From assembly GCA_024280115.1 (NCBI GenBank), contig JAJRQT010000071.1:62001-126000 (forward strand): 64,000 bases of DNA. Direction: 5' to 3'. This document shows, piece after piece, positions 35,949 through 59,328 of the stretch. Source of the DNA: Bacteroidota bacterium (GTDB lineage Bacteria; Bacteroidota; Bacteroidia; Cytophagales; Cyclobacteriaceae). The translations under genes and the position numbers were made by a program. The notes under the pieces were generated by a model that worked only from the letters and a program-made list of their open reading frames with translations, was not told the origin of the DNA and did no database searches. Position 1 is the first letter of the stretch. The number at the start of each line of letters is the position of its first letter.

Positions 35949-37640
35949 TTAATAACCTTTAGGCTTATGGTTTTTACCATGACAAGTAAGATAGCAGCGC
36001 CCTCTGAAGTTACCCAAATCTTCAAATCTCAATCTACCCATCTGATCCGGAGAAACAACATTCAGATCAAAGTTTATCAAATGTGTGTTATTCGTATTAT
36101 TGCCTTGTGTATTACTTATTCCATGAGAATCATGACAGACACTACAAGGCGTGTCTTCTCCTCTGATATGTTTATCATGATCATCAAAAGACTGATCTCC
36201 AAGAATAGAGTTACGGTCATGACAACTATAGCAAAGTTCATAATTTGTTGCCGACTCTTGAGTAAAGTCAGTTGTCTCATAGCGGTATTTTAATATCTGT
36301 GGATAAATAGAACCATGTGGGCCGGCTGGGGAGGCTCCATCACTTGCATGGCAATCGGTACAATATATAACACTGGACTCGGTGAGGGGAGCTATTAAAC
36401 TTGGGACATCATTATTTACTCCTGCCCCTTCTACCGGATGAAATGAAGGATTAGCAAGGTCAAATTCCAAACGAACATTATTTTGTTCTATTTGCCGGGT
36501 GATGACACTAGCTGGTTTTGCCGGGCTATCGGCATGACATCGAAAACATACCTCATAAGAATTTGTTATCGGATTCACGTTATTACCTCCCTGGTCTATA
36601 CCTCGTACCTCAGCTAAAAACCCATTTACAGCCGGAGCGCTGGCAGTAGTACTGTTAACAGCATGCGGATTATGACAATCCTGACATTCAACATGCTGTG
36701 TGGCTGACATTGTTGGCTCAGTGGGATCATGTATCTGATTATAACCATATACATTATGAGTATAAGGTTTGAGTGTCTCTGTCTGGATATCAGTAGTTGC
36801 AACATTCCCGTTATGGCAATCTAGACAGTTACTTTCCTCGGCAGCTGCTTTTAATAATCTTAGTTTACCTCCAGAGTTATGCGGGTCATGGCAATTCTCA
36901 CATGCGTTTTCCGCTACTGTCGGATATGGAGATTCTATATGTTGCCAGGGATTGGTGCCCGAACCATTCCATGTGGCATTTGATAAGCTGTGGCTTGAAG
37001 TTGACCAAAAACTTCGGTCATGACAACTAAAGCAAAGTTCTGAATTTTGCTTTGTGGTAACCAAAAACTTTGAATAAGTATTTTCATGAGGATCGTGACA
37101 GGAAGTGCATTGTACCTTTCCATTTTCCAACTGCACAGGTAAAGTAATATTCGAAGGATCTTTTAACTGTCCATCAGTAGCTGCCAGGGTGGGCGTATAA
37201 TTAAAAGAAACAGGATGATCATCACTTAAGTCAGTAGTAAGATTACTTCTACCCGATGGCATGGTAGTGATGCCACCACTAAAATCTATATCCGTAGTAC
37301 GGCTAACGATATTTCCCAGAGCTATTGTGCCATCATGACAAGAAAGACATAGAATAGCAGACCCATCAGGTTGCCCGGGAGTAGCTTGTAAAGTTGAGCT
37401 ACTGTACAACGTATAAGTTGAGCCGGGATCATCTTTATTCCATAGAGGCGCTACGGGACGGCTCGCGTGTGGCGTATGACAAAATATACATACCTCTGAT
37501 TCAGAAGTGGCCTTAACTGTACCGGGCCCTCCGGCTGAAAGATTATGCATGGTACTTACCACTGATTGACCCTGTATAAAGCCCGGTAAAACAAGGCTGA
37601 AAAAGAGCGCAAAAAATCCAATCCTGTACCTTCTATTCAT
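35949..37640 (-). CDS. Dodecahaem cytochrome c, doubled CXXCH type
   Basis: 563 residues with a Sec signal (ending GFIQGQ). Eleven CXXCH motifs are present (CIFCH, CLSCH, CTSCH, CFSCH, CENCH, CLDCH, CQDCH, CFRCH, CTDCH, CYSCH, CSVCH) plus a C-terminal CYLTCH, a CX3CH variant. The first ~200 residues share the layout of the small cytochromes at 38652, 45139 and 50547 (CHTPH...PLW...TLYSSST...CLSCHDGT...DLSDDHPVSF...CTSCHD), so this is that module extended. It is the last gene of the seven-gene operon and overlaps the NHL gene by eight bases. Expected to be a periplasmic or surface electron carrier. Confidence 0.92.
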   Translation of the reverse strand: MNRRYRIGFFALFFSLVLPGFIQGQSVVSTMHNLSAGGPGTVKATSESEVCIFCHTPHASRPVAPLWNKDDPGSTYTLYSSSTLQATPGQPDGSAILCLSCHDGTIALGNIVSRTTDIDFSGGITTMPSGRSNLTTDLSDDHPVSFNYTPTLAATDGQLKDPSNITLPVQLENGKVQCTSCHDPHENTYSKFLVTTKQNSELCFSCHDRSFWSTSSHSLSNATWNGSGTNPWQHIESPYPTVAENACENCHDPHNSGGKLRLLKAAAEESNCLDCHNGNVATTDIQTETLKPYTHNVYGYNQIHDPTEPTMSATQHVECQDCHNPHAVNSTTASAPAVNGFLAEVRGIDQGGNNVNPITNSYEVCFRCHADSPAKPASVITRQIEQNNVRLEFDLANPSFHPVEGAGVNNDVPSLIAPLTESSVIYCTDCHASDGASPAGPHGSIYPQILKYRYETTDFTQESATNYELCYSCHDRNSILGDQSFDDHDKHIRGEDTPCSVCHDSHGISNTQGNNTNNTHLINFDLNVVSPDQMGRLRFEDLGNFRGRCYLTCHGKNHKPKGY

Positions 37641-38655
37641 GATTAATAAGTTGAAAAATCTGTACTCGCGAATTATAACTATCAGCTATAAAAATATAAT
37701 CATCGTTATCTATATAAATACCAAGTGGCATCCAAAAGTCACCACTTTTGTGCCCCTGATTTCCAAAATTGTATAACAATTGCCCTTCTCGATTAAATAT
37801 CTGAACTGTATGAAATAAGGCGTCAACCACATAAATGTTACCTTTAGAATCGACAGCTATGCCCTTTGGCCTCGCAAAATATCCAGTGGCGTCTCCGACC
37901 TGACCAAACATAGAAACCCACTCACCATCATTATTAAAAATCTGTACCCTGAAATTCATTGAATCTACAATGTAAACAAACCCCTGATGATCAATCCAAA
38001 TATGAGTCGGGAAATTAAATTCCCCCGGACCATTCCCCCTACTACCAATCGTTCTCAAAAGCGCTCCATTTGAATTGAGTATTGCAATCCTGTGAGCCTT
38101 AGTCTCTAAAACCCATATCTCATCTTTACTTCCTGAATATGCTATACCTGTAGGCTGTTGCAACTTAAGTGATTCCTTGAATACTGTGACCTTTTTCCCT
38201 CCGTTGGTAAGCAAGAAAATTTCATTTAACCTTGAATCAGTTATCAGCATGTTCTTATTGGGAAGTTCACAAATACCTACCAGTGAATTAAAGGATTGAT
38301 CATCCTTTGATTTTGGATTGAGTGTGGCGCCTTTCTGATGCTCTATTAATGCGATGGAATTATTTTTTTGATCCAATACCCAAAACAATTCCGGGCTTTG
38401 CGCCAGCACAGCAACCGGCTTTATAAGTACAGCCGGTTTTTTACCAAAGACAAATTCTCCAATACGATCAAACAGACCTTTTTTACCGGAGTTTTTTTGC
38501 TCAGAAGGAAATTCGCCAACCCAACGGATATGCACCACATCTGCCTTAATGGCACTATCTGGTAATATAGTATCCTGTGCCATTGATCCGCTTAGGGCAG
38601 ACGCCATCAGGAATATGAAGGATAGGGCAAAGCGTATGTTGACTGGAATTTTCAT
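37633..38655 (-). CDS. Exported NHL-repeat beta-propeller protein (second in operon)
   Basis: 340 residues with a Sec signal ending SGSMAQ. About six NHL blades follow residue 85, with typical repeats such as FNFPTHIWIDHQGFVYIVDSMNFRVQIF and FARPKGIAVDSKGNIYVVD. It is a paralogue of the lipoprotein at 43576. Propellers of this kind are known beside porin and cytochrome genes in several metal-reducing bacteria, where they may organise the complex. It overlaps both neighbours (four and eight bases), implying translational coupling. Confidence 0.88.
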   Translation of the reverse strand: MKIPVNIRFALSFIFLMASALSGSMAQDTILPDSAIKADVVHIRWVGEFPSEQKNSGKKGLFDRIGEFVFGKKPAVLIKPVAVLAQSPELFWVLDQKNNSIALIEHQKGATLNPKSKDDQSFNSLVGICELPNKNMLITDSRLNEIFLLTNGGKKVTVFKESLKLQQPTGIAYSGSKDEIWVLETKAHRIAILNSNGALLRTIGSRGNGPGEFNFPTHIWIDHQGFVYIVDSMNFRVQIFNNDGEWVSMFGQVGDATGYFARPKGIAVDSKGNIYVVDALFHTVQIFNREGQLLYNFGNQGHKSGDFWMPLGIYIDNDDYIFIADSYNSRVQIFQLINHE

Positions 38656-39284
38656 AGATTATGACAGGTTAAACATAATGCGCTTTTTCTGTTTGTCTTC
38701 CACAATGATGAAAAACCATTGATTTCCATCTGCCGCGGAGTAACCGGAGGGCATGTACTACAGGCTATCAATTCCATGGAAAAATGTGCATCGTGGCACG
38801 ATGTGCATTCAATCCTTCCGTTTCTAAGCATATCTTCCGATATGGTATTTCCCATCCCAGATAAAGTAGTATTTGGGTTGAAGAGCCTGGTCTTTCCCAT
38901 ATTTCCTTCTGAATATTTCACTGAAACCGGATGACTAAAATGAATACCGGTATTTTGTGCTTCTGCCTGGGAAAGTCTGGTATTTTGGCCGGATACGGCA
39001 ACTGCTCCATCATGACAGTTTAAGCATAATTTTGACACGCTCGATATATACACAGAATCTTTGGCTGTCAAGGAATCACTTTCGTAAGAAACAAAATAAC
39101 CATCGGAAGAAGTGGCCTTAGCCTCGGGATTGTAGATGTGGCATGGGTTACAACGTTGATCAAAATCCCAATTATTTTTATCAAATTTATGGGGATTATT
39201 TATGAAACCTTGTCCATAAGCACCAAGGTTTCCCAAAAGGAATAATCCTGCTAAAACGAAATGAAAAAATTTAAAAGTCCGCAT
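38652..39284 (-). CDS. Small multiheme cytochrome c, four haems plus one degenerate site
   Basis: 210 residues with signal ending GAYGQ. Intact motifs are CNPCH, CLNCH, CTSCH and the C-terminal CLTCH. At the position where the paralogue at 50547 has CTGCH, this protein has CSTCP: the axial His is replaced by Pro, explicable by one base change (CAT to CCT). The haem site is probably lost. The gene has the NHL gene overlapping its end by four bases. Confidence 0.9.
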   Translation of the reverse strand: MRTFKFFHFVLAGLFLLGNLGAYGQGFINNPHKFDKNNWDFDQRCNPCHIYNPEAKATSSDGYFVSYESDSLTAKDSVYISSVSKLCLNCHDGAVAVSGQNTRLSQAEAQNTGIHFSHPVSVKYSEGNMGKTRLFNPNTTLSGMGNTISEDMLRNGRIECTSCHDAHFSMELIACSTCPPVTPRQMEINGFSSLWKTNRKSALCLTCHNL

Positions 39285-39303
39285 AAAAAAAAATGTTCAA
39301 TTT

Positions 39304-40746
39304 CTACTCGCTTAATTTCAATGAATCCGGTAAAACCACGATGCGTTCATAACTGTATTTGTCATGACAGCCGGTTAAACAAGACCCTCCCTTATCTGTG
39401 TGTTCAAATTCTATCGGCATTAGCCAGTTTCCATATTGTGTGCTTTCTTTGATTAAATATTTATTCTCAGCGCCATGTACATCATGACATAAATTGCAGT
39501 TGCGCCCTTTTTCTCCATGAATATGTACATAGTGCAGATTTTGATCCATGTTTCTGAAATTGGTCGCTGTCTTAGTGACAGGAGCTTCAAAAAGCTGTTG
39601 ATCATGACAACTGAAACAAAGATCGAAATTTTCAACTGTTGCCTCTGTATATTTCTCAACAGGGAAAGCCATGGAAAGTAACGTGTGTTCCTCGGAAGCA
39701 TGTGCTTTGTGACAAACCGTACACCCTTCCTCTATAATTGCACCATGAATAGTGTTTCCCTCTTTTAGTTGTGGGCCTATAGCCTTAACGCTGCTGGAAT
39801 CAGAGGTTATGCGAGTATCATGACAGCTTAAGCACACTTCTTTTTCTGCTGCTTTTAGAATATTTTTTTCTGTAGAAGCATGAGGGGAATGGCATTTCAG
39901 GCAGGATTCGGTTTCATTCATTACCCCATGCACAACACTTGCGTTTTGAATACTGTCGCGAGTCTCTTCATGGCAACTAAAGCATAGCTCCTTAGTTGGA
40001 AGCTCAGTTAGGTGTGCTTCTTTGGAGCTGTGACCACTATGGCAGCTAAAGCACTCCTTTTTAAAGGGTTTGTGCAAATATTCTTTTTTAAGTTGTTTTC
40101 GGATGTCCTTGTGACAACTTCTACATAAACGCCCCAGGTTACTTGATTTCATAAATGATTTGTTGTCAGCCTGATGTGGATTGTGGCACCCGATACATTC
40201 TCCATCAGATACAGCGCCATGCACCATATTATTCTCCGGAATTTCCAATTCATGACATTCATAGCAAAGGGTCGAAACCGGATCCGATTTTACAAGGTAT
40301 AGATTAGGTGAATTATGGATGTCATGACAAGTTAAACACTCCCCCTTTTGGGTTGGGTCATGCACAAATTCTTCTTCATTTTTAGGATCATGGCATTCAT
40401 AGCACAGATCAGGAACCTCCGCCTTCAACGTAAAATCTTCAATATTTTCCCTGGGATGTTCATCCCCTACAGAAATATGACAACGCTGACAATCCTTCTT
40501 GGCAGGCGAATGAACATTCTCATCATCGAGCAGGTCGTCATGGCATTCAGCGCATGATTTAGCAGAATCAATTTGAGTGATGAATCCATAGTTATCTAAA
40601 TGATCATCAAAAGAAACCGTCAAAACAGTTTGTTTACTGGCGGCATTAATATGATTGCCGCTGGCATCCTTGTCAAACTGGTTTAGTTTAAAAAGGCTAT
40701 TGAGGCCAAGAATACTAATCCATATTAATATCATTAATTTGCCCAT
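39304..40746 (-). CDS. Large multiheme cytochrome c, 15 haem motifs
   Basis: 480 residues with a short N-terminal hydrophobic segment (about 4-18) serving as signal or anchor. There are fourteen CXXCH motifs spaced 20-45 residues apart, many followed by PH, GH or VH giving the doubled-CXXCH pattern, and a final CLTGCH (CX3CH). High haem density suggests a nanowire-like or porin-inserted electron conduit. It is placed directly after the beta-barrel gene (13 bp), as MtrA-like partners are beside MtrB. Confidence 0.93.
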   Translation of the reverse strand: MGKLMILIWISILGLNSLFKLNQFDKDASGNHINAASKQTVLTVSFDDHLDNYGFITQIDSAKSCAECHDDLLDDENVHSPAKKDCQRCHISVGDEHPRENIEDFTLKAEVPDLCYECHDPKNEEEFVHDPTQKGECLTCHDIHNSPNLYLVKSDPVSTLCYECHELEIPENNMVHGAVSDGECIGCHNPHQADNKSFMKSSNLGRLCRSCHKDIRKQLKKEYLHKPFKKECFSCHSGHSSKEAHLTELPTKELCFSCHEETRDSIQNASVVHGVMNETESCLKCHSPHASTEKNILKAAEKEVCLSCHDTRITSDSSSVKAIGPQLKEGNTIHGAIIEEGCTVCHKAHASEEHTLLSMAFPVEKYTEATVENFDLCFSCHDQQLFEAPVTKTATNFRNMDQNLHYVHIHGEKGRNCNLCHDVHGAENKYLIKESTQYGNWLMPIEFEHTDKGGSCLTGCHDKYSYERIVVLPDSLKLSE

Positions 40747-40759
40747 TTCCTATCTCATT

Positions 40760-42721
40760 TTAAAATTTTCTGTCTATCTGAAAATACACCCCGCCAAAAT
40801 TGATCTGTTCTCCTACATAATCTCGCCTATAGACTTCTAACCCGACCTTTATATACAGCGTCCGGTAAATTGTATTATATTCTAACCTTGAAGTAATCAA
40901 ATCAAGATCTATCTGCTCGCCAACCTGCTTTCGATAACCTAAATCAAAATTAAGTTTAGATTGTGGCTTGATTTGATAGATTACCTTACCGAAAATATTT
41001 GAATAAAGCTGATCGGTATTCGTTTCAGTTAACGTAAGATCGGTCAGTTCACCGTTGAGTGAGAGCCGGATTTTTTTACCAATTTGCCCATTCATTTGCA
41101 TGTAATACCGCATTTTTATATAGGGCACTATAGTACTTCGATAATCATCCATCTCCACACCTCCGCTAAAAAATCCAATTCGTAACCGCCCACCATAAAT
41201 ATTTCGTGTATAATAGTTGAGGGTAAGTAATTCGGCTGATTGCAAATTGTTGTAGTCCTGATTAGCAAATGTGTAATAAAATTCCAGTAGCCGTTTAAAA
41301 AGCGTTACCCGGATAGAAAAAGATTGCGTGTCCGCATTGAAATTATAGGAGCCGGTCTGCTCGGCCACATAGTCCACCAGAATGGCGCTATTATTGGCAA
41401 TCTGCCCACCGGGTATCCTTTGAATTTCTACAAATTCATTCCTTTCAATTAAAAGATAATCGAAATTTTCCTGGTAAATAAATGATCCGGTAAGGTCTTT
41501 AACCAACACACTGGCCAGATTTACATATGGGCGGTTAAGTAATACAATCTCACCATCAGAGAGCACGTGATCTTCATCTATTACTACCAAAAGTGAGTCG
41601 GGATTGCTGACTACATTTTGATTTTGCCTGCGAAAGCTGTAGATGAGGTTCAGGGTGCCATTAGCAGGAATTTTCTTTAAATAATTCAGAGTCCCTCCAA
41701 ACCGTGTATTGGTTTCTTTGAATGCCGAATAATCAGATTTAAAATATTCGTAGAACACCCCAGTTCTCAGACTTGAAAACAGTTGGTGGTCAAGGCCGGC
41801 CCTGATCCTGCTTTGCTTATATTGTTGAGTCTCCTGCCGTACACCAGTGAAGTCATAGTTACCACTGAACCTAAATTTATATGGTAATCTGAAATTTAAT
41901 GTTTCAAAAACCTGTAATCTTTTTTGCGTAATATTACCGCGTTGATCAAGGTTGGTGATCGATGACCTGAACATATACTTCCTTTTGTTATCAAAGTAGA
42001 AAAGGTTGTTCAATATCAGATTATCGTACAAGTTGTTGATTTGTACCAAGTTTTGATCTTCCCGGAAATACCTGTAACGTGAATATCTCAGCTCATGATC
42101 ATCTCCTTTGTCAGTAAAAGATCTTCTGACCCGGGCTTGCAATTCCCCTTGCCTGAAACGAAAAGTACGTCCTGTTTCTGTCTCCAGTTGATTCCACTTC
42201 CTGTCGGTATATGTCACTGTTAATGGCAATATATTGTTTCTGTAATTATAATTTAGTCCCCACTGCCTGGAGTTGGTTTTCAGACTGGTAACATATTCCC
42301 GGTTAACAAAATTTTGGCCGATGTTATAATGAGCACCAAAACTCATTGGTTTTTGACTGAAGAGGGTTGCCCTGATATCCAGCTTTTTGAGTGTTAAAAC
42401 CTCCGATCGGTCTGGACTTACCGTATATGTTTGACTGTTGGCCCCGGGATTGTATTCGCCCCCGATATCCAATACCAATAAATTGGGATGAACAATATAG
42501 TTTTTGGTATAGAGACTAAATCTTCCATAGATAAAGGGATATTTTGAATAATCGACAACGTTGTTGAGCGTCCTTTCCTGTTCGCGATAGAAGCCTTTTA
42601 CCCCAACGTTTCCCGAATATGAAACAAGACGCCAAATTTTAAAATCAGAAGATTTACTCTGGGCAAAACATTGACCTGCAAGTATATAAAGAATAAATAT
42701 GAGCAGTTTCGATTTTAACAC
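40760..42721 (-). CDS. Outer-membrane beta-barrel of the cytochrome conduit
   Basis: 653 residues with a Sec signal (ending GQCFAQ). The whole mature chain is made of alternating aromatic/polar amphipathic strands (for example RQWGLNYNYRN, FRFSGNYDFTG, MRYYMQMNGQIG), and it ends in FQIDRKF with a terminal Phe, the usual barrel-assembly signal. No plug or TonB box is seen. Size and position between cytochrome genes match MtrB/PioB/OmbB-type porins, though there is no visible sequence motif linking it to those families. Confidence 0.85.
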   Translation of the reverse strand: MLKSKLLIFILYILAGQCFAQSKSSDFKIWRLVSYSGNVGVKGFYREQERTLNNVVDYSKYPFIYGRFSLYTKNYIVHPNLLVLDIGGEYNPGANSQTYTVSPDRSEVLTLKKLDIRATLFSQKPMSFGAHYNIGQNFVNREYVTSLKTNSRQWGLNYNYRNNILPLTVTYTDRKWNQLETETGRTFRFRQGELQARVRRSFTDKGDDHELRYSRYRYFREDQNLVQINNLYDNLILNNLFYFDNKRKYMFRSSITNLDQRGNITQKRLQVFETLNFRLPYKFRFSGNYDFTGVRQETQQYKQSRIRAGLDHQLFSSLRTGVFYEYFKSDYSAFKETNTRFGGTLNYLKKIPANGTLNLIYSFRRQNQNVVSNPDSLLVVIDEDHVLSDGEIVLLNRPYVNLASVLVKDLTGSFIYQENFDYLLIERNEFVEIQRIPGGQIANNSAILVDYVAEQTGSYNFNADTQSFSIRVTLFKRLLEFYYTFANQDYNNLQSAELLTLNYYTRNIYGGRLRIGFFSGGVEMDDYRSTIVPYIKMRYYMQMNGQIGKKIRLSLNGELTDLTLTETNTDQLYSNIFGKVIYQIKPQSKLNFDLGYRKQVGEQIDLDLITSRLEYNTIYRTLYIKVGLEVYRRDYVGEQINFGGVYFQIDRKF

Positions 42722-42732
42722 CGTCTTTTACT

Positions 42733-43575
42733 TCAATTTAGCATAAATTCATTTTCACCCCCGTGCGGATTATGGCATTGAGTACAAACTTCATTTTCCG
42801 TTCCCTGATGTTCTACATTCCTGAATACATCTGAAGAATCATGACAATTCAGACAAAGGTCTTGCCCTGATTGTACCAGTAAATTTTCATTACCCGATGT
42901 GTGAGGTCCGTGGCAGGTCGAGCAATAGTCACCTGAAACAGGGCCATGTAAAAAGCTGTAATCACTGGTGGTGTCTTCATGGCATTTGTAACATGCGTCC
43001 TTTTGCAATACAAACCGGTTTTCACTGCTATGCGGATTATGACAATCCAGGCAATTATCCTTTTTGATATTATCATGAATGCTGTTTTCTGTGACCACTT
43101 TACGATCATGACAATTGTAACAAAATTCTTCTCCCTCATTCAATAACAAATGTTTGGTTTCGGCTACATGTGGTCTGTGGCATGAAGTACAATAACCGGC
43201 GCCGGCAGGGCCATGTTTAAAACTATGTTTTTCATTATTACTGCTATGACATTGGTAACATAATTGTGGTTCTTCTACGACCAGCTTTCCCATCTGCTCT
43301 TTAATGTGGCAGCTCGCACAATCTTTTTCTCTGTAAGGTTCATGTATGTAGTTATACACGGGCGCTAAAACAGCTTTTGATACAGCCAATATCCTGGCGC
43401 TGTCAAGCTGTCCCAGGGTATCCCCAACAACAAGGGCATTGTGTTCTACAGGAGTAGGCACACCATCGAAAATGGTACTCAGAATACCATATCTAACTTT
43501 TGGCGCACATGCCACTGCCACAACTGTCAGACTCACCAACAGGATAACAATATGTTTCCCGCTTATACCTGGCAT
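42733..43575 (-). CDS. Nonahaem cytochrome c lipoprotein
   Basis: 280 residues. The N-terminus ends VAVAC, a good lipobox, so it is probably anchored to a membrane by lipid. Nine CXXCH motifs (CASCH, CYQCH, CTSCH, CYNCH, CLDCH, CYKCH, CSTCH, CLNCH, CTQCH) are regularly spaced by about 20-28 residues, most followed by PH or a second His. The start directly abuts the NHL lipoprotein stop. Probably the surface-exposed or periplasmic entry cytochrome of the conduit. Confidence 0.92.
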   Translation of the reverse strand: MPGISGKHIVILLVSLTVVAVACAPKVRYGILSTIFDGVPTPVEHNALVVGDTLGQLDSARILAVSKAVLAPVYNYIHEPYREKDCASCHIKEQMGKLVVEEPQLCYQCHSSNNEKHSFKHGPAGAGYCTSCHRPHVAETKHLLLNEGEEFCYNCHDRKVVTENSIHDNIKKDNCLDCHNPHSSENRFVLQKDACYKCHEDTTSDYSFLHGPVSGDYCSTCHGPHTSGNENLLVQSGQDLCLNCHDSSDVFRNVEHQGTENEVCTQCHNPHGGENEFMLN

Positions 43576-44643
43576 CTATTTATTTGCTATCGCTTTTTCT
43601 TCCACATATCCATAAACATTTACTTTGTCAGGTCCGAAGTTATTGGTTACTAAAATAATGTATTGAAGAATATAGCGATCATCTACATATTCCTGAAAAT
43701 TTTCCAGATGATCATAGCTTATAGCCACCTTTGCCGGCAGCCACATATCTCCCGGCCCCTTGTAACTACCGCCAAAAAACATCAGAAGCTGGCCTTCCTT
43801 ATTGAATATTTGTACATTTTCAAATGCGGCATCCACAACATATAGTTTGTCTTCCCTGTCAACAGCAATACCCTTTGGCCGTACAAATTGGCCCAGGCTT
43901 TTACCATAGCTACCGATCGAGTTGAGATATTTACCCTTGTGGTCATATATTTTAATTTTGAACTCGCCAAAATCACTGACATAGACCTTGTCCCCGGTTA
44001 TAAAAAGGTTTGTTGGTTGATATAATTTACCTTCACCCTGTTTCTCCTCAGGAATGGAGTATAGAAATTGATAGGTGCTGTCATTCTTGTAAACATCTAT
44101 ACTCCCATTCGTTACATCGGCTATCCAAATTTTATTATTTTTCACAAAAACATCCGTAGGCTTAAAATTTTCATCAGCTCCAATAGCGGTAACATATTCA
44201 TGGTTTTCATTATATATTACTACCTGTTGTCTTTTGGCATCTGCCACAAAAAGGTAACCAAGTGAATCGACAAAACAGTTAATGGGCAGTTTTAGTTGTC
44301 CCAGGCCTTTTGGTACAAAATATTCAAAACTCCGGGCTTTCATATCCATAATTTCCAGACCTTCCAGATCAAGGTCACATAGATAAATTTTATCACCTTG
44401 TATTGCTACGCCATAAGGCTTTATTATAGGTTTTGGCGCTTCTTCACCGGCTACAAATTTGCCAAATCCAGATTTATTCCCTTCGACGTCTTGTGAGGTG
44501 CTGAAGCTGGTCAGGTATTGAATACGTGCCTTTTCAGGTGGCGCCGGATAAACAATCACTTCGGCGGTGGTTTGTAGCTTTGGCGAACAAGCTAGGGCAG
44601 CAAGTAAAAAGTACCCAACTAAAAAATTAATTAACAATTTCAT
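43576..44643 (-). CDS. NHL-repeat lipoprotein (first gene of the cytochrome operon)
   Basis: 355 residues from the ATG at 44641-44643, which gives a lipoprotein signal ending LLAALAC; a longer frame would move the signal inward. About six NHL blades follow (YVDSLGYLFVADAKRQQVVIY, FVRPKGIAVDREDKLYVVDA). It is similar throughout to the NHL protein at 37633, suggesting duplication within the operon. The operon promoter with its Crp/Fnr dyad lies about 170 bp upstream. Confidence 0.88.
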   Translation of the reverse strand: MKLLINFLVGYFLLAALACSPKLQTTAEVIVYPAPPEKARIQYLTSFSTSQDVEGNKSGFGKFVAGEEAPKPIIKPYGVAIQGDKIYLCDLDLEGLEIMDMKARSFEYFVPKGLGQLKLPINCFVDSLGYLFVADAKRQQVVIYNENHEYVTAIGADENFKPTDVFVKNNKIWIADVTNGSIDVYKNDSTYQFLYSIPEEKQGEGKLYQPTNLFITGDKVYVSDFGEFKIKIYDHKGKYLNSIGSYGKSLGQFVRPKGIAVDREDKLYVVDAAFENVQIFNKEGQLLMFFGGSYKGPGDMWLPAKVAISYDHLENFQEYVDDRYILQYIILVTNNFGPDKVNVYGYVEEKAIANK

Positions 44644-44811
44644 AAAAATAGTTTTATCTGATATACCCAATCCTGCCATTTTAACAGGATGCTTTGTGAA
44701 AAATCCGATTCGTTGTCACAGACCTAATAAGACCTGACAAGTTTCCAAAACCTGTCAGGTCTGCCAGTATTTAGCTAACCCGAAAACGCCTTAAAAAATA
44801 ACACTCCTATA

Positions 44812-44871: not shown

Positions 44872-45085
44872 ATTTTTCATTGATTTTTATCGCCAATATA
44901 ATTATCTATATCCGGGCCGATGGTAATTTAACCGACTAACTAAAAACTCCCTTTGTCCATGCGGGATCTCTTGAAAAGGACCCCGCATATGTCAAAAATC
45001 AACTGACCGAAGAACCCGCTATGACCCAAAGTGTCTGACCATAGCGTAATTAATTTCTTAGTTAATACACTATAGCCGAAATAAT

Positions 45086-45112
45086 AAAAAAGGCGGTAAA
45101 ACCGCCTTTTTT
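45086..45112 (-). terminator. Terminator of the tetrahaem cytochrome gene
   Basis: AGGCGGT / ACCGCCT stem flanked by A and T runs on both sides, 27 bp past the stop codon at 45139. The symmetry would allow termination in both directions. Confidence 0.85.
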
Positions 45113-45138
45113 ATTATTACAAAATGAGAAAATTAAAT

Positions 45139-45762
45139 TTATTTAGCATGACATGTCAGACATAAAGCACTAGCAGCATTGGACAACCTTAAGAGATCAG
45201 AAAGACCAGCTCCATTATGTACATCATGGCAGGAAGCGCATTGTACCTGACCGCCTAAAAGCAAATCATCATTAATTGTGCCTCCCAAACCTGAGCTAGT
45301 AGTGGTTGGATCAAATAACCCTGGGTCTAAAGCAACCAAGGCAGCATCATAGGTAAAGGAAATAGGATGGTCATCAGATAAATCCGTTCCCAAATTTTTC
45401 TTACCTGTAAGAAAATCACTACCATTTGTCCTACCACCAAAATTATCAACAGCTACAGTACCATCGTGGCAACTCAAGCACAGTTTGGAACTTGCTGCCG
45501 GTTGTCCGAGATCAGTTGCATCAAAGGTTGGAGATGAGTAAAGAGTAAAGTTTGCTGTTGTTACTTCGTGATTCCACAACGGAGCTTCACCAACTGTAAT
45601 ATCCGCATTGTGAGGTGTATGACATACGATACAAATCTCGCCGGTGTTATTCCAGTTATCACCACTAAAGTCGTGAGCTGACCCAACAATAGTCTGTGCA
45701 TAAATATACTGCCCCATGAGCATTACAAATGCAAGTGTAAAAAGTTTTTTAAGTGTTTTCAT
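45139..45762 (-). CDS. Small tetrahaem cytochrome c
   Basis: 207 residues with signal ending YIYAQ. Four CXXCH motifs: CIVCHTPH, CLSCHDG, CASCHDVH and CLTCHAK as the last residues. It is a close paralogue of the proteins at 50547 (five haems) and 38652, with the conserved TDLSDDHPISF stretch between motifs two and three. The gene is monocistronic, ends at a strong terminator, and has three phased Crp/Fnr-type dyads upstream. Probably a periplasmic or surface carrier. Confidence 0.93.
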   Translation of the reverse strand: MKTLKKLFTLAFVMLMGQYIYAQTIVGSAHDFSGDNWNNTGEICIVCHTPHNADITVGEAPLWNHEVTTANFTLYSSPTFDATDLGQPAASSKLCLSCHDGTVAVDNFGGRTNGSDFLTGKKNLGTDLSDDHPISFTYDAALVALDPGLFDPTTTSSGLGGTINDDLLLGGQVQCASCHDVHNGAGLSDLLRLSNAASALCLTCHAK

Positions 45763-46269: not shown

Positions 46270-46983
46270 TTACTGATTTACATCAATCACTTTTCCTTCC
46301 TCCATGATGATTTTATAGAAGTATCCAAATCCAAAATCCTTATCCAACGTAATTTTTCCTTCAATTGTCACTATTTCGCCTTGTTTTGCTTCCATATCTG
46401 AGGTAATAGTAATATCATATTCACCGGAATGTTCAGTGCCATCCTGCAGGTGTATCCAGTTTTTACCCATTATATTAGCGCTGAATTTTGTGACTTTTCC
46501 CCTCAACTTCACAATTTTATTTGCATAGCTTTCTTTATTGCCCAACAGTTCGGCAACAGAAATTCCACCGTCTGCCGGATCAATTTTTATTTCGAGTTTC
46601 TCTGAAACGGGTTCAGATTCCTGGGGTATTGTTTTTTGGGTTTCTTGCGATAAACCGGATCCACCCTGGATAACTTCAGCACTTTGGACTCCTTGAATAA
46701 ATATCACCGATTCAAAGGTTCTGTCCAACTCAGAACTTTTAAAATCTCTCATTTCCATGCCTCCCTGATAGTAATATGTCTCTCCGATGGAGGCTTCTAT
46801 TTTTGGCAGCGCCAGCCATTGTGATTGTCCATTTTCTTTGGCGAGTAAATAGGTATATGATGTTGTTTGCAATACCTGCTCCACTACGATTTCATGAATG
46901 TTCGATTGAGAGTGGGTAGGATTTTGAGCCCGGCCAATTGATATGGTGAGTGCTATGGCGATAACGGTATGTATAAGTTTCAT
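46270..46983 (-). CDS. Exported OB-fold-like protein linked to the cytochrome regulon
   Basis: 237 residues with a Sec signal (ending SIGRAQ). The C-terminal ~100 residues (VKLRGKVTKFSANIMGKNWIHLQDGTE...ITSD...GEIVTIEGKIT) have the pattern of exported OB-fold domains. The N-terminal half resembles a second small beta domain, and a Gln/Glu-rich linker joins them. Homologues of this type occur near cytochrome c genes, but the function is not known to me. Its promoter contains a Crp/Fnr-type dyad matching those of the conduit and ccsBA. Confidence 0.7.
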   Translation of the reverse strand: MKLIHTVIAIALTISIGRAQNPTHSQSNIHEIVVEQVLQTTSYTYLLAKENGQSQWLALPKIEASIGETYYYQGGMEMRDFKSSELDRTFESVIFIQGVQSAEVIQGGSGLSQETQKTIPQESEPVSEKLEIKIDPADGGISVAELLGNKESYANKIVKLRGKVTKFSANIMGKNWIHLQDGTEHSGEYDITITSDMEAKQGEIVTIEGKITLDKDFGFGYFYKIIMEEGKVIDVNQ

Positions 46984-47942: not shown

Positions 47943-50078
47943 TTACTGAAGTCTGTATATTGCCGGGCTCGACCAAACCCAATTTTCAGTTTTAAATTTC
48001 CAGGATTCTCTACCGGTAGTTACATCTACACTATACAAGAAACCGTCATTGGAACCAAAAAACACCTTGCCATCCGATACTGCGGGACGAGAAGCTATCG
48101 AACCCCCGGTTTTAAATTTCCAGATTGTATTCCCGTTAGCGATATCAAGACAATACAGATAATCATCCCAACTGCCAAATATTACCTTGCCTTTAAATAC
48201 AATTGAGCCCGAGGAAACAATACCTCCTGTTTTAAAATTCCATACCTCCTTGCCTGTATTGATATTGACGCAATACAAGTACTGGTCAGCGGAGCCAAAT
48301 AAAATAAGATCATCGGATATTGCAGGTTGTGAAGATATCAAATAATTAGTTTTAAATTTCCAATCCAGTTCACCGGTTTTAATATCCAAACAATAAAGGT
48401 TGCCATCCTTTGATCCAAAAAATACTTTGCCCTTAGAAACAGAGGGGCTCGATGATATGCGATCATCAGTTTTGAATTTCCATATTTGTTCCCCGGAATT
48501 GAGATTGACACAATACAAATGATTATCCTTTGACCCAAAAAATACTTTCCCGTCTGTTATAGAAGGACTGGAACTCACCCAATCCTCCGTTTTAAATTTC
48601 CATAGTTCCAACCCTGTACCTATATCCAAACAATATAGATAATGGTCAGTTGAACCAAATACTACTTTATTACCAAATGCAGATGGGCTGGAATGTATAC
48701 CTCCTCCTGATTTAAATTTCCAAAGCTGCTTTCCACTCACAATATCAATACAATACATGTAATTGTCCCTTGACCCAAAAAGAAGCTTTTTGTTCGATAT
48801 ATATGGATTGGACGAGACAGCTCCACCAGTTTTAAAACTCCAAAGATGTCGACCGGAATTGTTATCCACACAATACAATTGATTGTCCCAACTGCCGAAG
48901 AATATTTTGTCATTTACTATCAGTGCTTTAGAAGACACTTCAGCGGCTGCTTTATATTCCCATATTATCTTACCATCCCGGATGTCAGCACAATACAGTT
49001 TTCGATCTGCCGACCCAAAAAATACTTTCCCATTAGCTATCTCCGGAGATGAGCGGACCCAACCTTCTGTTCTCAATTTCCATATCTCAGCGCCTGTTTT
49101 AATATCTAAACAATACAAATGTTTATCTTTTGATCCAAAAAAAACACGTCCGTCAGACACGGTGGGACTTGACCAAACCCATCCCAATGTTCTGAATTTC
49201 CATATTTGTCCACCGGTTTTGATATCGAGGCAATACATGTATTCATCCTTTGACCCAAAAAATACTTTTCCATCAGAGATGTATGGGGACGAATAAATCC
49301 AGCCACCTGTCTTAAATTTCCATAATTGACTGCCGGAGTTTACATCCACGCAATATAGATGGTCATCCTTTGAGCCCATGAAGACCTTTCCGTCAGATAC
49401 GGAAAGACTTGAATGAACCCAATCTAATGTTTTTAATTTCCAAATTTCTTTACCAGTGTCTATGTTCAGACAGTATAAGTTCTCGTCTTTTGATGTAAAA
49501 AATACCTTCTCTCCAGCTATTACCGGATTCGAATACACCCACCCTTCAGTTTTAAAATTCCATAACTCACGACCTGTGGCGAGGTCCAAACAATACAAAA
49601 ATTCGTCTTTAGAACCAATGAATACCTTGCCATCATGTATTGACGGGCTGGAATAAACCCAATCTCCTGTTTTGAACTTCCATATTTCGGAGCCATTATT
49701 GATGTCAATACAATAAAGAAAATTGTCAGAGGAGCCAAAAACGACTTTGCCATTAAATATGGCCGGAGTGGAGTTGATCCATCCACCCGTCTTAAATCTC
49801 CAAATTTCCATGCCTGAGGTGATATTCACGGAATGGAAAAATTTGTCGTATGACCCGAACAATATCTGACCTTCATTTAATGATTGTGGTGTTTCATCGC
49901 TATAATTTTTTTGATTTAGCCGGTCCTGTTGCGATAACAAAGAATCTGTAAGACTAAACTCTACGATTTGGTTGTAGCTATCAAAACCAAGGTTTAGATG
50001 ATTTGAAATTGATAAACACCCAATCGAGATAAAAAAATAGATTAATTTTATGTAACAAATTACTCCAAAGAATAACAT
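47943..50078 (-). CDS. PQQ-type beta-propeller protein with 16 exact 40-residue blades
   Basis: 711 residues from the first ATG (50076-50078); an upstream TTG would add ten residues. After an N-terminal hydrophobic segment (about 1-22) it is made almost wholly of sixteen 40-residue repeats of the form GKVFFGSKDxxLYCLDxxTGxxxWKFKTxxW, the PQQ_2/YncE-like blade. Real quinoprotein enzymes have catalytic insertions that are absent, so a structural or binding role is likelier. Sixteen blades could make two eight-bladed propellers. It may be a lipoprotein (SIGC), but the lipobox is weak. Confidence 0.85.
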   Translation of the reverse strand: MLFFGVICYIKLIYFFISIGCLSISNHLNLGFDSYNQIVEFSLTDSLLSQQDRLNQKNYSDETPQSLNEGQILFGSYDKFFHSVNITSGMEIWRFKTGGWINSTPAIFNGKVVFGSSDNFLYCIDINNGSEIWKFKTGDWVYSSPSIHDGKVFIGSKDEFLYCLDLATGRELWNFKTEGWVYSNPVIAGEKVFFTSKDENLYCLNIDTGKEIWKLKTLDWVHSSLSVSDGKVFMGSKDDHLYCVDVNSGSQLWKFKTGGWIYSSPYISDGKVFFGSKDEYMYCLDIKTGGQIWKFRTLGWVWSSPTVSDGRVFFGSKDKHLYCLDIKTGAEIWKLRTEGWVRSSPEIANGKVFFGSADRKLYCADIRDGKIIWEYKAAAEVSSKALIVNDKIFFGSWDNQLYCVDNNSGRHLWSFKTGGAVSSNPYISNKKLLFGSRDNYMYCIDIVSGKQLWKFKSGGGIHSSPSAFGNKVVFGSTDHYLYCLDIGTGLELWKFKTEDWVSSSPSITDGKVFFGSKDNHLYCVNLNSGEQIWKFKTDDRISSSPSVSKGKVFFGSKDGNLYCLDIKTGELDWKFKTNYLISSQPAISDDLILFGSADQYLYCVNINTGKEVWNFKTGGIVSSGSIVFKGKVIFGSWDDYLYCLDIANGNTIWKFKTGGSIASRPAVSDGKVFFGSNDGFLYSVDVTTGRESWKFKTENWVWSSPAIYRLQ
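47953..49872. repeat. Sixteen tandem 120-bp coding repeats
   Basis: The period is exactly 120 bp with no insertion or deletion through 1,920 bp. The DNA copies diverge at many synonymous sites while motifs such as FGS-D and YC-D and WKF-T remain, showing selection on the protein rather than recent slippage. Confidence 0.9.
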
Positions 50079-50546
50079 TTCAATTATTGTTAATGTAATC
50101 AATAACAATTAGCACCAGGTGGCAATCATTAAGTAATGTTTATGAAAATCACGATTTCCCTATCACAAAAGTAAAGTGCATTTCCCTCCATAAAAAATAA
50201 CTTTTTTATTTTTCACTTTGCAGCTTTCCTTATCAATTGAATAATTTAGCCGTGGCATTATACTCCCTCTAAATAAATACAATCTGAGAACATCATTGTG
50301 TAATCATGAGAATAGCCAATACATTGTAATTCTACCGCAGCAGAATTAAAATATACTCATATTATTCCTTGGAAAATTATACATTGATAACGAACTTAGC
50401 TTAACCAAATATAAAAACAAATCATGGTGTATTATACTGAATTTCAACTTAACTGATTTTTTTTGTTTAATCGAATTTCAACATTGTATTATTTATTTGG
50501 TTATACTTAATTATTATATTTTTTATTAATCTTTTCAGCCAGCCTT
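50079..50546. other. Divergent intergenic region
   Basis: 468 AT-rich bases between the propeller and pentahaem cytochrome genes. A TACTTTTG -7-like element lies at 50166-50173 on the minus strand, 88 bp before the propeller start, without a clear -33 box. No Crp/Fnr dyad and no repeat were seen. Confidence 0.4.
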
Positions 50547-51215
50547 ATGAAAGTTTTTAAATATTTTTTTACTGTCCCGCTGTTAGCTTTCTTTTCTTTA
50601 AACACGTATGGTCAGGGTTTATCGAATAGCCACCACGATTTTACAGGAGCTGCCTGGAGTGGAAATGAAGCTTGCAAACCGTGTCACACACCTCATAATG
50701 CCAATATGGAGGTGCCAAACTCTCCCTTGTGGAACCATCAAGTTACGAATGCCTCTTTTCAGGTTTATTCAAGTTCAACGCTAAATAGCTTTCCCAGTCA
50801 GCCGGCTGGTCATTCAAAACTATGTTTTTCATGTCATGACGGAACCGTTGCTGTCGAAAACCATAGTGGTAATACAGATGGAACCCGTTATGTTTCATTT
50901 GGTAATCTAACGACTGATTTGAGAGATGATCATCCTATATCTTTTGAATACAGTACAACACTTGCTACGGTTGATGGAGGCCTGCATGATCCAAAAATTA
51001 CGCCATCTGGACTGGGAGGGACCATTGAAGAAGACCTTCTTGAAAATGGATACATGCAATGCACCTCCTGCCATGATGTTCATATTGGTAGAAATACACA
51101 GGGGTGCACCGGTTGTCATCAGGTTGGTGGGGGCGGCGGTATGACCACCGTTTCACTTTCAATATGGAAGTCAAACCAGGGAAGCGCATTATGCTTAACA
51201 TGTCATAATAAATGA
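50547..51215 (+). CDS. Small pentahaem cytochrome c
   Basis: 222 residues with signal ending LNTYGQ. Motifs CKPCHTPH, CFSCHDG, CTSCHDVH, CTGCHQ and CLTCHNK. It is the same family as the proteins at 45139 and 38652 and carries an extra Gly-rich segment (VGGGGGM) after motif four, the site that is CSTCP in the 38652 protein. It is divergent from the PQQ propeller gene. The only plus-strand cytochrome in the cluster. Confidence 0.93.
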   Translation: MKVFKYFFTVPLLAFFSLNTYGQGLSNSHHDFTGAAWSGNEACKPCHTPHNANMEVPNSPLWNHQVTNASFQVYSSSTLNSFPSQPAGHSKLCFSCHDGTVAVENHSGNTDGTRYVSFGNLTTDLRDDHPISFEYSTTLATVDGGLHDPKITPSGLGGTIEEDLLENGYMQCTSCHDVHIGRNTQGCTGCHQVGGGGGMTTVSLSIWKSNQGSALCLTCHNK

Positions 51216-51821: not shown

Positions 51822-54800
51822 TTATTCTTCAATTTCATCCAATACAGGAGTCTGATCTTTTACTTTATAGTCATTATACGCAGCTAAAGCACTGATTATG
51901 GCCATAATAGCCAATGCGTAGTACACAAAATCCGGTACCGGTATCGGGTCTCCTGAAGCATAAGAATGCAGTCCCGATAAATAATAATTCACGCCAAAGT
52001 AAGTCATTAAGACAGAGCTGAATCCAAACATAGACAGGAAATTAAATGAAAATGTACTCCTTAAACCGGGAACAAGTCTCATATGTAAAATAAATGAATA
52101 TACAATAATTGTGACCAGCGACCAGGTTTCTTTCGGGTCCCAGCCCCAATACCTGCCCCACGATTCATTGGCCCATATACCACCGAGAAAATTGCCGATG
52201 ATCAAAAGAATCAACCCCACTGTCAAAGACAACTCAATGATGAGTGATAGTTCCTTAAGAGTGAGATTAACGCGCTCCATATTACTTTTATTTCTAAATA
52301 TCATAATTCCCAGATTTAGAAATCCGGTCATACCACCAAGCGCTAAAAATCCATAGCTGGCAGTAATGGTGGCCACGTGAATGGTCAACCAGTAGGATTT
52401 CAGCACCGGAACAAGATTTGTGATTTCGGGATTGAGCCAACTCATATGAGCGGTAAGCAAAGTCACACCGGTTAACAATGCTGTTATGGAAAGAATTATT
52501 GGAGATTTTTTCATAAACATAAATCCGGCCAACATGGTGGCCCAGGAAATATATATCATGGATTCATAGCCATTACTCCATGGCGCATGACCGGCAACAT
52601 ACCATCGCAGCCCCAAACCAAAAGTCTGAGCTACAAAGGCAAATATCAATATGCCAATCAGCACATTTATTATGAGTTTAAATTGCAATGCAGGTTTGAA
52701 TATTTGGGCGAAGAAAAATCCAAATAACACCATGCCCAGCAACATATATACAGGAAATAATTTTTTAAAAATATTAATGTTATTATAAAAAACCTCCATG
52801 TTTACTTTAGTTTCAGAGGGGATTATTGCCGCACCTTCTTTTTTCTGATAATTTTTTATTACGTCCAGGGCTTGATTGGCTTCAGTATAGTTATTTGATT
52901 GAATTCCCTCCTTAAGTTTCACAAGATATTGCTCGAACATGGAGAGTATTAAATCTGCATCGGCCTTGTCAATCGATTTTTTATGATCTGCCGGAGAGAT
53001 CCACTTATTTTCGGGGTGATTTTGCAATGGGAAAAATTTCAGCAATGAGCCACTAAATGCCATATAGCTTACGTTTACCCTTTCATCTACATAGATCAAT
53101 TCCTTGTCAAACATATTACGCAATGCAGGTTTTTTTGCATAAGCATCGTTGATTCGGGTTTTCAATGTGTATTGTCCTTTTTCATCGAAAAAATCACTGA
53201 TGCTGGCATATTTACCAGTGATTCCCAGCATACTCTGTAATGCGGGATCGTCAACTTTGATCATTGGTTTTTTCTGCCATGTTTGCGGATCTACGATCAT
53301 ACTCAGAATCACCTGTTCCGCCGTCAAACCATGATAACTGCTTTTCTTATAAATTTTCACAAGGGTTTCATTCGCAATAGTATTCATTGGTATGATTCTC
53401 CCCTCACTTTTTTGAACAAGGAGTTTTCCAAATCGTGCGGCATGTTCTTTACTGACTACATTTGCATCCTGTGCGATCACACTCTGTCCACCAAGAAATG
53501 TGATTAAAAGTAATACCACAGAAACAAGTAATTTTTTTCGTTGATCATGAGTTTCTTTGATCTGTTGAGAAACTCTGCTGAATCTGGTTTTTTTAGTAAA
53601 AAAGGAAACAAGCAAACTCCCAAAAAGTAAAAAATATCCAAAATAAGTCACCAACGTCCCCCAATAATCATGATTTACAGATAATATGGTCCCCTTCTCA
53701 TCCTGGTCATAGGAAGACTGATAGAATCGATATCCTTTATATTCCAAAATATTATTCATGAAAATTCTGAATGGTCTTTCCACATTATTTTCCTTATCAA
53801 TAAGTGTGATTTCACTGGCAAATGAAGAAGGACTCATCGAACCGGGATAACGGTCAAGCTGAAACTCATTAAGCTTTAGAGAAAACGGAAGTACCCAATT
53901 CTGATATCCAAATTTAATTGAAGCATCAATGCCATCTATGTTAACCCGTTCCCATTTACTCCATTTCAGAAAGATATTTTTTGAAATATTCTCACCTACT
54001 ATGTTAAGTTTAGCTACTCTAATCCCATGTTGATGCCCATCATCATTCGGGTCAGGCACATAAGTTAAGGATGCTTTTTCTGAAAAATCTTTAATCATCA
54101 TATTCACCGCTGGAAATTTATATACTTGATTTTTTGCTGCAACAGAAAACTCACTGACAATCATAGATGAATCATTGACACTTTCTGATTCCATTGAACT
54201 TCTGGAAAATTTGACCGGAGATTTCATGAATAATTGTCCCTTTTTAATAATAAACCAGATGTTCTCCCGATTGGTGGTATCACCAAAACTCACCCCAAGG
54301 CCATTTAAAACAGATGATTCTCCATATTTGAGAATGGTATCATCTCGTCCTTTTTCCCCGGAAGTCACAATACTTAACATACCAACGCCCTGCTCATCTG
54401 TAACGAAGGTTTCAACTGCATTGGGCATATAGCGATCAATAGAGATACGGAATGAAGAATTATTGAAGTCGATGTTTTCATTAAACAGTTCTTTTTGTAC
54501 CGGAGATAACCATATCCTCTTACTTATATTTTCCTTCTCTGTTCCATCCTCAAGACGAATGTTAATGTAGGTATCTGAGGATAAATATAAATCAGTTGTC
54601 TGTCCCTGCCTGATGTGCATCTGCCCCTCAAATCCAATATAACGGGTTAGAGCAGCTCCGATAATTATAATCACCAAAGAAACATGAATAACCAATATGT
54701 TCAACTTACTTTTTCTGTACAATTGCCTTGTAAAAATCATGCCTGAAAAGTTGACTATCATCAACAACATAAGCGCTTCAAACCATCTTGCATTATAAAT

Positions 54801-54926
54801 GAGCATTTTGGCAGTTGTAGCATCAAAGTCGTTTTCAATAAAAGTGGCATAACCAATGGAAATTGCAAATACGACCATTAAAAGTCCCATAAAGGTTCCT
54901 GAGAATAAAAACTTAAAAAATTTCAT
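51822..54926 (-). CDS. ccsBA: Fused CcsBA cytochrome c synthetase (system II)
   Basis: 1034 residues. The N-terminal part is ResB/CcsB-like with several membrane helices and a large periplasmic domain. The C-terminal third is CcsA, with the haem-handling WWD-type motif around SWGRYWGWDPKET (about 915-927), and conserved His residues in HAPWSNGYESM and TIHVATITASYG. It brings haem across the inner membrane and ligates it to CXXCH motifs. The gene stands at the edge of the cytochrome cluster with a matching Crp/Fnr-type promoter, suggesting that haem ligation is co-regulated with its substrates. Confidence 0.93.
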   Translation of the reverse strand: MKFFKFLFSGTFMGLLMVVFAISIGYATFIENDFDATTAKMLIYNARWFEALMLLMIVNFSGMIFTRQLYRKSKLNILVIHVSLVIIIIGAALTRYIGFEGQMHIRQGQTTDLYLSSDTYINIRLEDGTEKENISKRIWLSPVQKELFNENIDFNNSSFRISIDRYMPNAVETFVTDEQGVGMLSIVTSGEKGRDDTILKYGESSVLNGLGVSFGDTTNRENIWFIIKKGQLFMKSPVKFSRSSMESESVNDSSMIVSEFSVAAKNQVYKFPAVNMMIKDFSEKASLTYVPDPNDDGHQHGIRVAKLNIVGENISKNIFLKWSKWERVNIDGIDASIKFGYQNWVLPFSLKLNEFQLDRYPGSMSPSSFASEITLIDKENNVERPFRIFMNNILEYKGYRFYQSSYDQDEKGTILSVNHDYWGTLVTYFGYFLLFGSLLVSFFTKKTRFSRVSQQIKETHDQRKKLLVSVVLLLITFLGGQSVIAQDANVVSKEHAARFGKLLVQKSEGRIIPMNTIANETLVKIYKKSSYHGLTAEQVILSMIVDPQTWQKKPMIKVDDPALQSMLGITGKYASISDFFDEKGQYTLKTRINDAYAKKPALRNMFDKELIYVDERVNVSYMAFSGSLLKFFPLQNHPENKWISPADHKKSIDKADADLILSMFEQYLVKLKEGIQSNNYTEANQALDVIKNYQKKEGAAIIPSETKVNMEVFYNNINIFKKLFPVYMLLGMVLFGFFFAQIFKPALQFKLIINVLIGILIFAFVAQTFGLGLRWYVAGHAPWSNGYESMIYISWATMLAGFMFMKKSPIILSITALLTGVTLLTAHMSWLNPEITNLVPVLKSYWLTIHVATITASYGFLALGGMTGFLNLGIMIFRNKSNMERVNLTLKELSLIIELSLTVGLILLIIGNFLGGIWANESWGRYWGWDPKETWSLVTIIVYSFILHMRLVPGLRSTFSFNFLSMFGFSSVLMTYFGVNYYLSGLHSYASGDPIPVPDFVYYALAIMAIISALAAYNDYKVKDQTPVLDEIEE

Positions 54927-56623: not shown

Positions 56624-57043
56624 TTACTCTTTCAGTGATCGTAAAAAAGTAATGACCATCCAACGTTCCTCCTCATCCTTAATCTTTTTTTCGAATGAAG
56701 GCATATCATCTCGTCCGTTTGTTGTTTTGTAAAACAATTCACCATCCGACTGCTCTTGAAATTCAGAAGTAGTAAAATCACCGCTTGGTGTGTCAAGTTC
56801 TGCGGCTTTTGGTCCGTCTCCTAATCCGGTTTTCCCGTGGCAGGATTTGCAATGCTTGGCATACAACTCGGCGCCTATTTCCATGGCCTCATCTTCATCA
56901 GTTACCGTGTTTTCCATTTTTTTATACTTATCAGGGACCTCCCAATCATCCTGATAATTTACAATTGGCTTAAATGCAAAAAGTGCAAAGGCCACAAACG
57001 CTATCATAAACAGCGAAACATTAAGGATTTTTCTTTCTTTCAT
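56624..57043 (-). CDS. Membrane-anchored monohaem cytochrome c
   Basis: 139 residues. One N-terminal transmembrane helix (about 8-26) serves as anchor. The single CKSCH motif (about 65-69) and the distal Met in RDDMPSF (about 111-117) are the two axial ligands of a class I cytochrome c. It is last in the NrfD/ferredoxin operon, 67 bp after the exported anchor protein, a place like that of ActE in alternative complex III. It would pass electrons to or from periplasmic carriers. Confidence 0.9.
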   Translation of the reverse strand: MKERKILNVSLFMIAFVAFALFAFKPIVNYQDDWEVPDKYKKMENTVTDEDEAMEIGAELYAKHCKSCHGKTGLGDGPKAAELDTPSGDFTTSEFQEQSDGELFYKTTNGRDDMPSFEKKIKDEEERWMVITFLRSLKE

Positions 57044-59317: not shown

Positions 59318-59328
59318 ATCGTTATTCT

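Follow-up and report, generated by a model that had tools for sequence, protein, structure and literature searches.

A conserved porin-cytochrome gene cluster with a probable OmcE-type nanowire component in Bacteroidota and other phyla

Seven operon genes and an upstream tetrahaem gene

The stretch analysed here (the window) comprises 64,000 nucleotides of contig JAJRQT010000071.1 from a Cyclobacteriaceae assembly (GCA_024280115.1; 7.2 Mb in 236 contigs), and it carries an operon for an outer-membrane barrel, multihaem cytochromes, and NHL propellers, together with a gene for a cytochrome of the OmcE nanowire family. Seven contiguous genes on the minus strand were confirmed at 35949-44679. They code, from 5' to 3', for an NHL lipoprotein, a 9-haem lipoprotein, a 653-aa barrel, a 15-haem cytochrome, a 4-haem cytochrome, a second NHL protein, and a 12-haem cytochrome, with successive intergenic gaps of 0, 11, 13, 19, -4, and -8 bp. 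The initial annotation had given this order, haem counts of 9, 15, 4, and 12, and gaps of at most 19 bp plus overlaps, all of which were borne out when the CX3CH motifs were counted (the overlaps are 4 and 8 bp). Its assignment of the host to Bacteroidota also held, as the genus-mates include a Cyclobacteriaceae metagenome-assembled genome (MAG) (L003/L009). The seven-gene set was real but incomplete, since an eighth gene just upstream (45139-45762) and the OmcE-type N-terminus of the 12-haem cytochrome had been overlooked. The features are listed below in the direction of transcription.

45139..45762, minus strand: tetrahaem cytochrome of the OmcE nanowire family, 207 aa, with 4 CxxCH motifs and a signal peptide (PDB matches)
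45078..45125, minus strand: hairpin separating the tetrahaem gene from the operon, a probable transcription terminator (-21.9 kcal/mol, z -7.0 versus shuffles)
43576..44679, minus strand: NHL1, an NHL beta-propeller lipoprotein (NHL PF01436, E=1.5e-10; lipobox LAALAC; likely start 44643)
42733..43575, minus strand: MHC9, a 9-haem lipoprotein (9 CxxCH; lipobox VVAVAC; Paired_CXXCH, E=1.5e-47)
40760..42721, minus strand: outer-membrane beta-barrel, 653 aa, GTG start (AlphaFold2 model; without a Pfam or NCBIfam family)
39304..40746, minus strand: MHC15, a 15-haem cytochrome (14 CxxCH and a terminal CX3CH; profile match to MtrA 6r2q_A)
38652..39284, minus strand: MHC4, a divergent OmcE-like tetrahaem cytochrome (4 CxxCH; 33% identity to the 45139-45762 protein, E=6e-30)
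37633..38655, minus strand: NHL2, a second NHL beta-propeller (NHL, E=1.3e-26; paralogue of NHL1)
35949..37640, minus strand: MHC12, a 12-haem cytochrome (11 CxxCH and 1 CX3CH; OmcE-type unit at residues 1-208 and an 8-haem C-terminal region ending in the CX3CH)

The CX3CH is thus the final haem motif in both MHC15 and MHC12. The haem-site DNA pattern was matched 53 times in the window, compared with 3.7 matches expected from shuffles. Pfam searches identified NHL in both propellers and paired-CXXCH in four cytochromes with E values of 1e-10 or better, except for MHC4 (E 7e-6), and the NCBIfam scan of the operon proteins agreed with these assignments. NHL2 shares 29% identity with NHL1 (E=1e-34). 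The likely start of NHL1 at 44643 is the second in-frame ATG of its gene and a plausible start for a lipoprotein. The tetrahaem gene is located on the same strand as the operon, 459 bp upstream, and is probably transcribed apart from it as its own transcription unit, because the strong hairpin directly follows the gene.

The barrel and its MtrA-related partners

The AlphaFold2 model of the barrel, built with 38 homologues, had a mean predicted local distance difference test score (pLDDT) of 88.4 and a predicted TM-score of 0.70. It consists of about 28 strands and a small inserted domain near residues 388-455, and this predicted strand number argues against the barrel being narrow. MtrB appeared among many barrels in the Foldseek search and had the top query-normalised TM-score of the matches listed (0.36), while in VIA-align the MtrB chain 6r2q_B (Z 19.4) gave the longest alignment among the top-ranked solved structures, with 435 residues. 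The initial annotation had pointed to MtrB and PioB as families for comparison. Membership of the barrel in the MtrB/PioB family was rejected, as none of the 38 homologues matched the MtrB_PioB Pfam model at E 0.1; the modelled fold resembles MtrB and, with an equal Z, a SusC barrel. No curated barrel family in Pfam or NCBIfam was reached by any of these homologues, and no solved relative of the barrel was found by sequence. For the Geobacter Omb-Oma-Omc and Ext conduits (OmbB, ExtB, ExtE), the comparison was made through curated models and likewise gave no match.

Both MHC9 (E=2.6e-15) and the MHC15 profile (E=2e-19) matched the MtrA chain 6r2q_A. For TIGR03508 (MtrA/DmsE decahaem) MHC15 scored 167 bits and MHC9 100 bits, below the cut-off of 192, and for TIGR03507 (OmcA/MtrC decahaem) the operon gave only weak matches of about 20 bits versus a cut-off of 209. 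The cluster is similar to MtrCAB, MtoAB, and PioAB in combining a large barrel, whose two best fold matches include MtrB, with MtrA-related multihaem cytochromes. However, it differs from them in that its barrel lies outside the MtrB_PioB Pfam family, a decahaem protein of the OmcA/MtrC family is lacking, the partner cytochrome is a 5- or 9-haem lipoprotein, and NHL proteins are present. MtrCAB was accordingly rejected as an assignment on the barrel family, the decahaem cut-offs, and MtrC.

A 5- or 9-haem gene lies immediately upstream of the barrel gene in 55 of the 59 loci with upstream sequence, although these loci are not independent of one another; in L023 an 8-haem gene is found upstream of the barrel. 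NHL1 precedes the 5/9-haem gene in nearly all loci. The counterpart of MHC9 is a 5-haem form in most other phyla, and the 5/9-haem lipoproteins, including MHC9, carry an FFDGVP-type motif shortly past the lipidated Cys. In one Bacteroidota family (L148:5234-7738), the 9-haem lipoprotein is extended at its C-terminus by a long repetitive stretch several hundred residues in length. The 13-15-haem gene, by comparison, directly follows the barrel gene in Bacteroidota-type loci only; it is kilobases off or elsewhere in Geobacterales and Planctomycetota, and it is also present in Nitrospirota loci in which this barrel family was not observed. The placing of the 15-haem protein inside the barrel, an idea of the initial annotation, could therefore not be established: the constant neighbour of the barrel is the 5/9-haem lipoprotein, and the choice of the barrel-filling cytochrome is not fixed on MHC15. 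The C-terminal 9-haem core of MHC15 is conserved, and its 6 N-terminal haems are variable. In L004-L008 and L148-L151, the cytochrome downstream of the barrel consists either of the 9-haem core or of this core plus 6 N-terminal haems (15 in total), an apparent gain or loss of haem modules.

The barrel is rare: it was found in 3 of 59 relatives and, within the class, in 5 of 295 genomes. When 84,980 species were scanned with an alignment of the barrel-adjacent cytochrome and the genes were then mapped, the same gene set emerged in Bacteroidales, MAGs labelled Chlorobiota (Ignavibacteria-type), Calditrichota, Desulfobulbia, Planctomycetota, Acidobacteriota, Marinimicrobia, and Geobacterales. In a Desulfocapsa MAG (L049), the set forms a compact operon of 7 genes, coding for the tetrahaem protein, NHL1, a 5-haem protein, the barrel, NHL2, a 12-haem protein, and a 13+1-haem protein. 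The barrel was detected in 21 of 48 Geobacteraceae genomes, two of them with weak partial matches. A cultured Geomonas strain (L046) is among the carriers of the cluster. It is the least conserved part of the cluster, with 15-20% identity in most phyla outside Bacteroidota. Neither the barrel nor MHC12 was found in the plasmids searched.

The barrel, NHL1, and the tetrahaem gene travel together, and the tetrahaem gene lies upstream of NHL1 in 24 of the 31 loci having at least 3 kb of upstream sequence. This association would also fit a barrel and NHL proteins whose main task is to export and assemble the tetrahaem filament, a role like the one proposed for OscEFG with OmcS, the large cytochromes being passengers or chaperoned partners. 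In Geobacter, the osc genes OscE, F, and G were reported to be needed for OmcS secretion (PMC13194489; PMC12977616). The osc (OmcS companion) operon likewise unites a filament cytochrome with a barrel, beta-propeller proteins, and large cytochromes. However, its barrel is not homologous by profile, and its filament cytochrome OmcS is hexahaem and without sequence similarity to OmcE (PMC12977616), whereas the filament cytochrome here is of the tetrahaem OmcE type. The barrel of the osc loci (L141/L142), which were located with an OmcS sequence validated only by a 72% full-length match in a Geobacteraceae genome, was unmatched by our barrel profile even at E=10, and the osc operon was rejected as the parent system. 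Likewise, no prolyl isomerase was found in the conduit loci with an OscH (PpiC-type) query, apart from two remote open reading frames in L062 and L074; UetB, the prolyl isomerase of the Uet system considered below, was itself not the query. In addition, MtrA-related cytochromes, a hallmark of conduits, flank the barrel in nearly all loci. An export and assembly machine is thus an unlikely explanation of the cluster.

OmcE-type proteins and a candidate filament anchor

In the PDB sequence search, residues 36-207 of the 207-residue tetrahaem protein matched the OmcE filament of Geobacter sulfurreducens (7TFS, E=6.8e-27), and residues 4-207 matched 9YUQ (E=2.4e-29), a 16-chain entry named only as a putative multiheme cytochrome c. 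All haem Cys and His and four further His were invariant when 27 tetrahaem proteins were aligned with 10 MHC12 N-domains; the distal His in the window protein are H30, H51, H132, and H182. A bis-His filament subunit with four haems requires four distal His. The tetrahaem protein thus combines homology to OmcE with four CxxCH motifs and four conserved distal His, and MHC4 is without one of these His. In OmcE filaments, one interface haem is ligated by a His of the neighbouring subunit (PMC12954529; PMC12307469). On our reading, this ligand would be the N-terminal His. No part of the cluster is better conserved than the tetrahaem protein, whose identity is 62-72% for several loci of Calditrichota, Hydrogenedentota, and Marinimicrobia.

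Sequence likeness to OmcE does not prove filament formation, and the barrel is accompanied by MtrA-related cytochromes, so the cluster could code for a plain porin-cytochrome conduit in which the tetrahaem and 12-haem cytochromes stay soluble or on the surface and at no point form polymers. We regard this as quite improbable, because the tetrahaem protein matches two solved family entries near full length, one of which is the OmcE filament, its family strictly retains all the ligand His, and it is very well conserved across phyla in many loci.

The tetrahaem gene also accompanies the barrel at the level of whole genomes. The 5 barrel genomes of the class all belong to the 7 that have the tetrahaem gene, and for the 59 relatives the barrel and tetrahaem sets are the identical 3 genomes. 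The probability of such co-occurrence by chance was about 1e-9 for the 295 genomes and 3e-5 for the 59 relatives if genomes are treated as independent, and 2e-5 by genus. A full MHC12 was present in 4 of the 5 barrel genomes.

Residues 11-208 of MHC12 matched the same OmcE structure (E=2.5e-35), and the remaining 8 haems were without a clear solved-structure match. Judged by its sequence, MHC12 is a fusion of an OmcE-type tetrahaem unit and an 8-haem domain. It differs from the OmcE nanowire subunit by these 8 added haems and, like the tetrahaem protein, by being tied here to a barrel and MtrA-related cytochromes. MHC12 comes second in conservation after the tetrahaem protein, with 40-79% identity across phyla and 40-50% in most phyla outside Bacteroidota. 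The 11 CxxCH motifs and the single CX3CH are retained in most complete MHC12 orthologues from many phyla (the L072 row, which was out of frame, was left out of the final alignment). The fusion may represent a docking piece that joins the conduit to an OmcE-type filament. More specifically, MHC12 could be a covalently capped nanowire subunit, whose OmcE unit joins the filament at one end while the 8-haem domain stops growth and docks on the conduit, which would make it a base plug, conserved across several phyla, that both anchors OmcE-type nanowires and feeds them electrically. We put this forward tentatively, as possible rather than probable. A 2025 review describes the anchoring of cytochrome nanowires at the outer membrane, and their electrical connection to it, as unsolved (PMC12307469). 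The MHC12 fusion, encoded with a barrel, MtrA-related cytochromes, and a filament protein, is a concrete and testable candidate for such an anchor, and it suggests how nanowires may plug into the cell surface. What is new here is the occurrence of the cluster in Bacteroidota, its breadth across phyla, and the MHC12 fusion as the candidate anchor. Cyclobacteriaceae and other Bacteroidota would thereby join the groups with filament-coupled extracellular electron transfer.

Taken together, the cluster is a real and well conserved system, which we class with the porin-cytochrome conduits and which adds a nanowire component, and it seems fairly probable that it forms a conduit for electrons across the outer membrane along with an OmcE-type cytochrome filament. 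The porin-cytochrome conduit of the initial annotation is still the best reading, given the MtrB-like barrel model and the MtrA-related MHC9 and MHC15, but a bare conduit is not, because an OmcE-type nanowire component, overlooked at that time, is present. In the conduit and filament proposed here, the barrel would span the outer membrane, and an MtrA-related cytochrome (lipid-anchored MHC9, MHC15, or both in series) would carry electrons through it. MHC12 would be located on the outer side, with its N-terminal OmcE unit joining the tetrahaem filament and its C-terminal 8-haem region facing the conduit. The chain of the tetrahaem protein would end at haem 4, where that of MHC12 would continue into the 8-haem region, so that the filament could extend from one end of MHC12 only. 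The two NHL propellers might serve as scaffold or assembly factors. The system would link periplasmic carriers to an electron acceptor or donor outside the cell (mineral, humics, or another cell).

Several observations weigh against this proposal. The SusC barrel had a Z of 19.6 in the structural comparison, tied with MtrB, so MtrB is not the sole best fold. The AlphaFold2 prediction of MHC12 had a mean pLDDT of 49 and was not used, which leaves the docking idea to the sequence comparison. In G065, a barrel genome with 91% completeness, no full MHC12 was seen, and a few genomes (G185 and G303) have a tetrahaem or full MHC12 gene but not this barrel (the full MHC12 in G185). In addition, the physiological role of cytochrome filaments is described as disputed (PMC11077965).

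Related systems, direction of flow, and neighbouring genes

Among described systems, the nearest by gene content, judged from a published description, is Uet (undecaheme electron transfer; Eddie 2022, as cited in PMC10734462), which is proposed for cathode-oxidising Tenderiales (Candidatus Tenderia) and is also recorded in Gallionella (PMC10734462). Both systems cluster a tetrahaem cytochrome, a barrel, two NHL proteins, and an 11/12-haem cytochrome. However, Uet is listed there with the prolyl isomerase UetB and the three trihaem cytochromes UetDEG, which are not among the genes of this operon, whereas the present cluster has the MtrA-related 9- and 15-haem proteins. The Uet component list in that account (tetrahaem UetA, barrel UetC, NHL proteins UetHI, and undecahaem UetJ with 11-12 motifs) matches closely (PMC10734462), which is consistent with the same machine running inwards, with Fe(II), minerals, or partner cells as the electron source. 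Such a reversal concerns the direction only and not the parts. Close homologues are also found in Geobacteraceae, which are best known for metal reduction, and the content of the window leaves the direction of electron flow unfixed. We therefore consider inward flow somewhat unlikely.

A locus in Geoalkalibacter ferrihydriticus (Ga0056053_02426-02431) that combines MtoA-like cytochromes with an OmcE homologue and a pair of NHL proteins (PMC12016550) is probably of the same kind as the cluster described here. It differs in that a barrel goes unmentioned in that report, which gives no functional model for the whole set (PMC12016550).

Two further cytochrome-related genes were identified near the cluster.

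50547..51215, plus strand: a further OmcE-family cytochrome with 5 CxxCH motifs (48% identity to the 45139-45762 protein)
51822..54926, minus strand: CcsBA-type cytochrome c maturation protein, fused ResB and CcsA (PF01578, E=2e-37; PF05140, E=5e-22)

The CcsBA gene lies 6 kb upstream of the cluster, and its homologues adjoin the cluster in L011, L014, L017, L023, L028, and L148; CcsBA is likely a helper for haem attachment. Consecutive modules of NrfD-type, 4Fe-4S, weakly Ig-like, monohaem cytochrome c, and 6-haem cytochrome proteins are encoded at 56624-63998 and continue on the neighbouring stretch (G000:C117:124000-134000, L144). These inner-membrane NrfD, FeS, and cytochrome modules resemble alternative-complex-III-like quinone modules, and they could be quinone-side partners that feed the conduit. 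A 237-aa protein encoded at 46270-46983 had no Pfam or NCBIfam match, and many Bacteroidota loci (L012, L016-L020, L023, L028, L148, and L151) have a homologue close to the cluster; the protein is possibly an unnamed helper.

In a Bacteroidetes MAG (L016, 8809-18002), very large cytochromes with 14, 16, 19, and 6 haems are encoded right after the conduit genes. The six-haem protein of 500 aa beside that cluster was considered as an OmcS-like wire and rejected, being without a solved relative. In the window, 47943-50108 codes for a 721-aa protein made up of many near-identical PQQ/BamB-type propeller repeats, which is kept in L010/L147 (59%).

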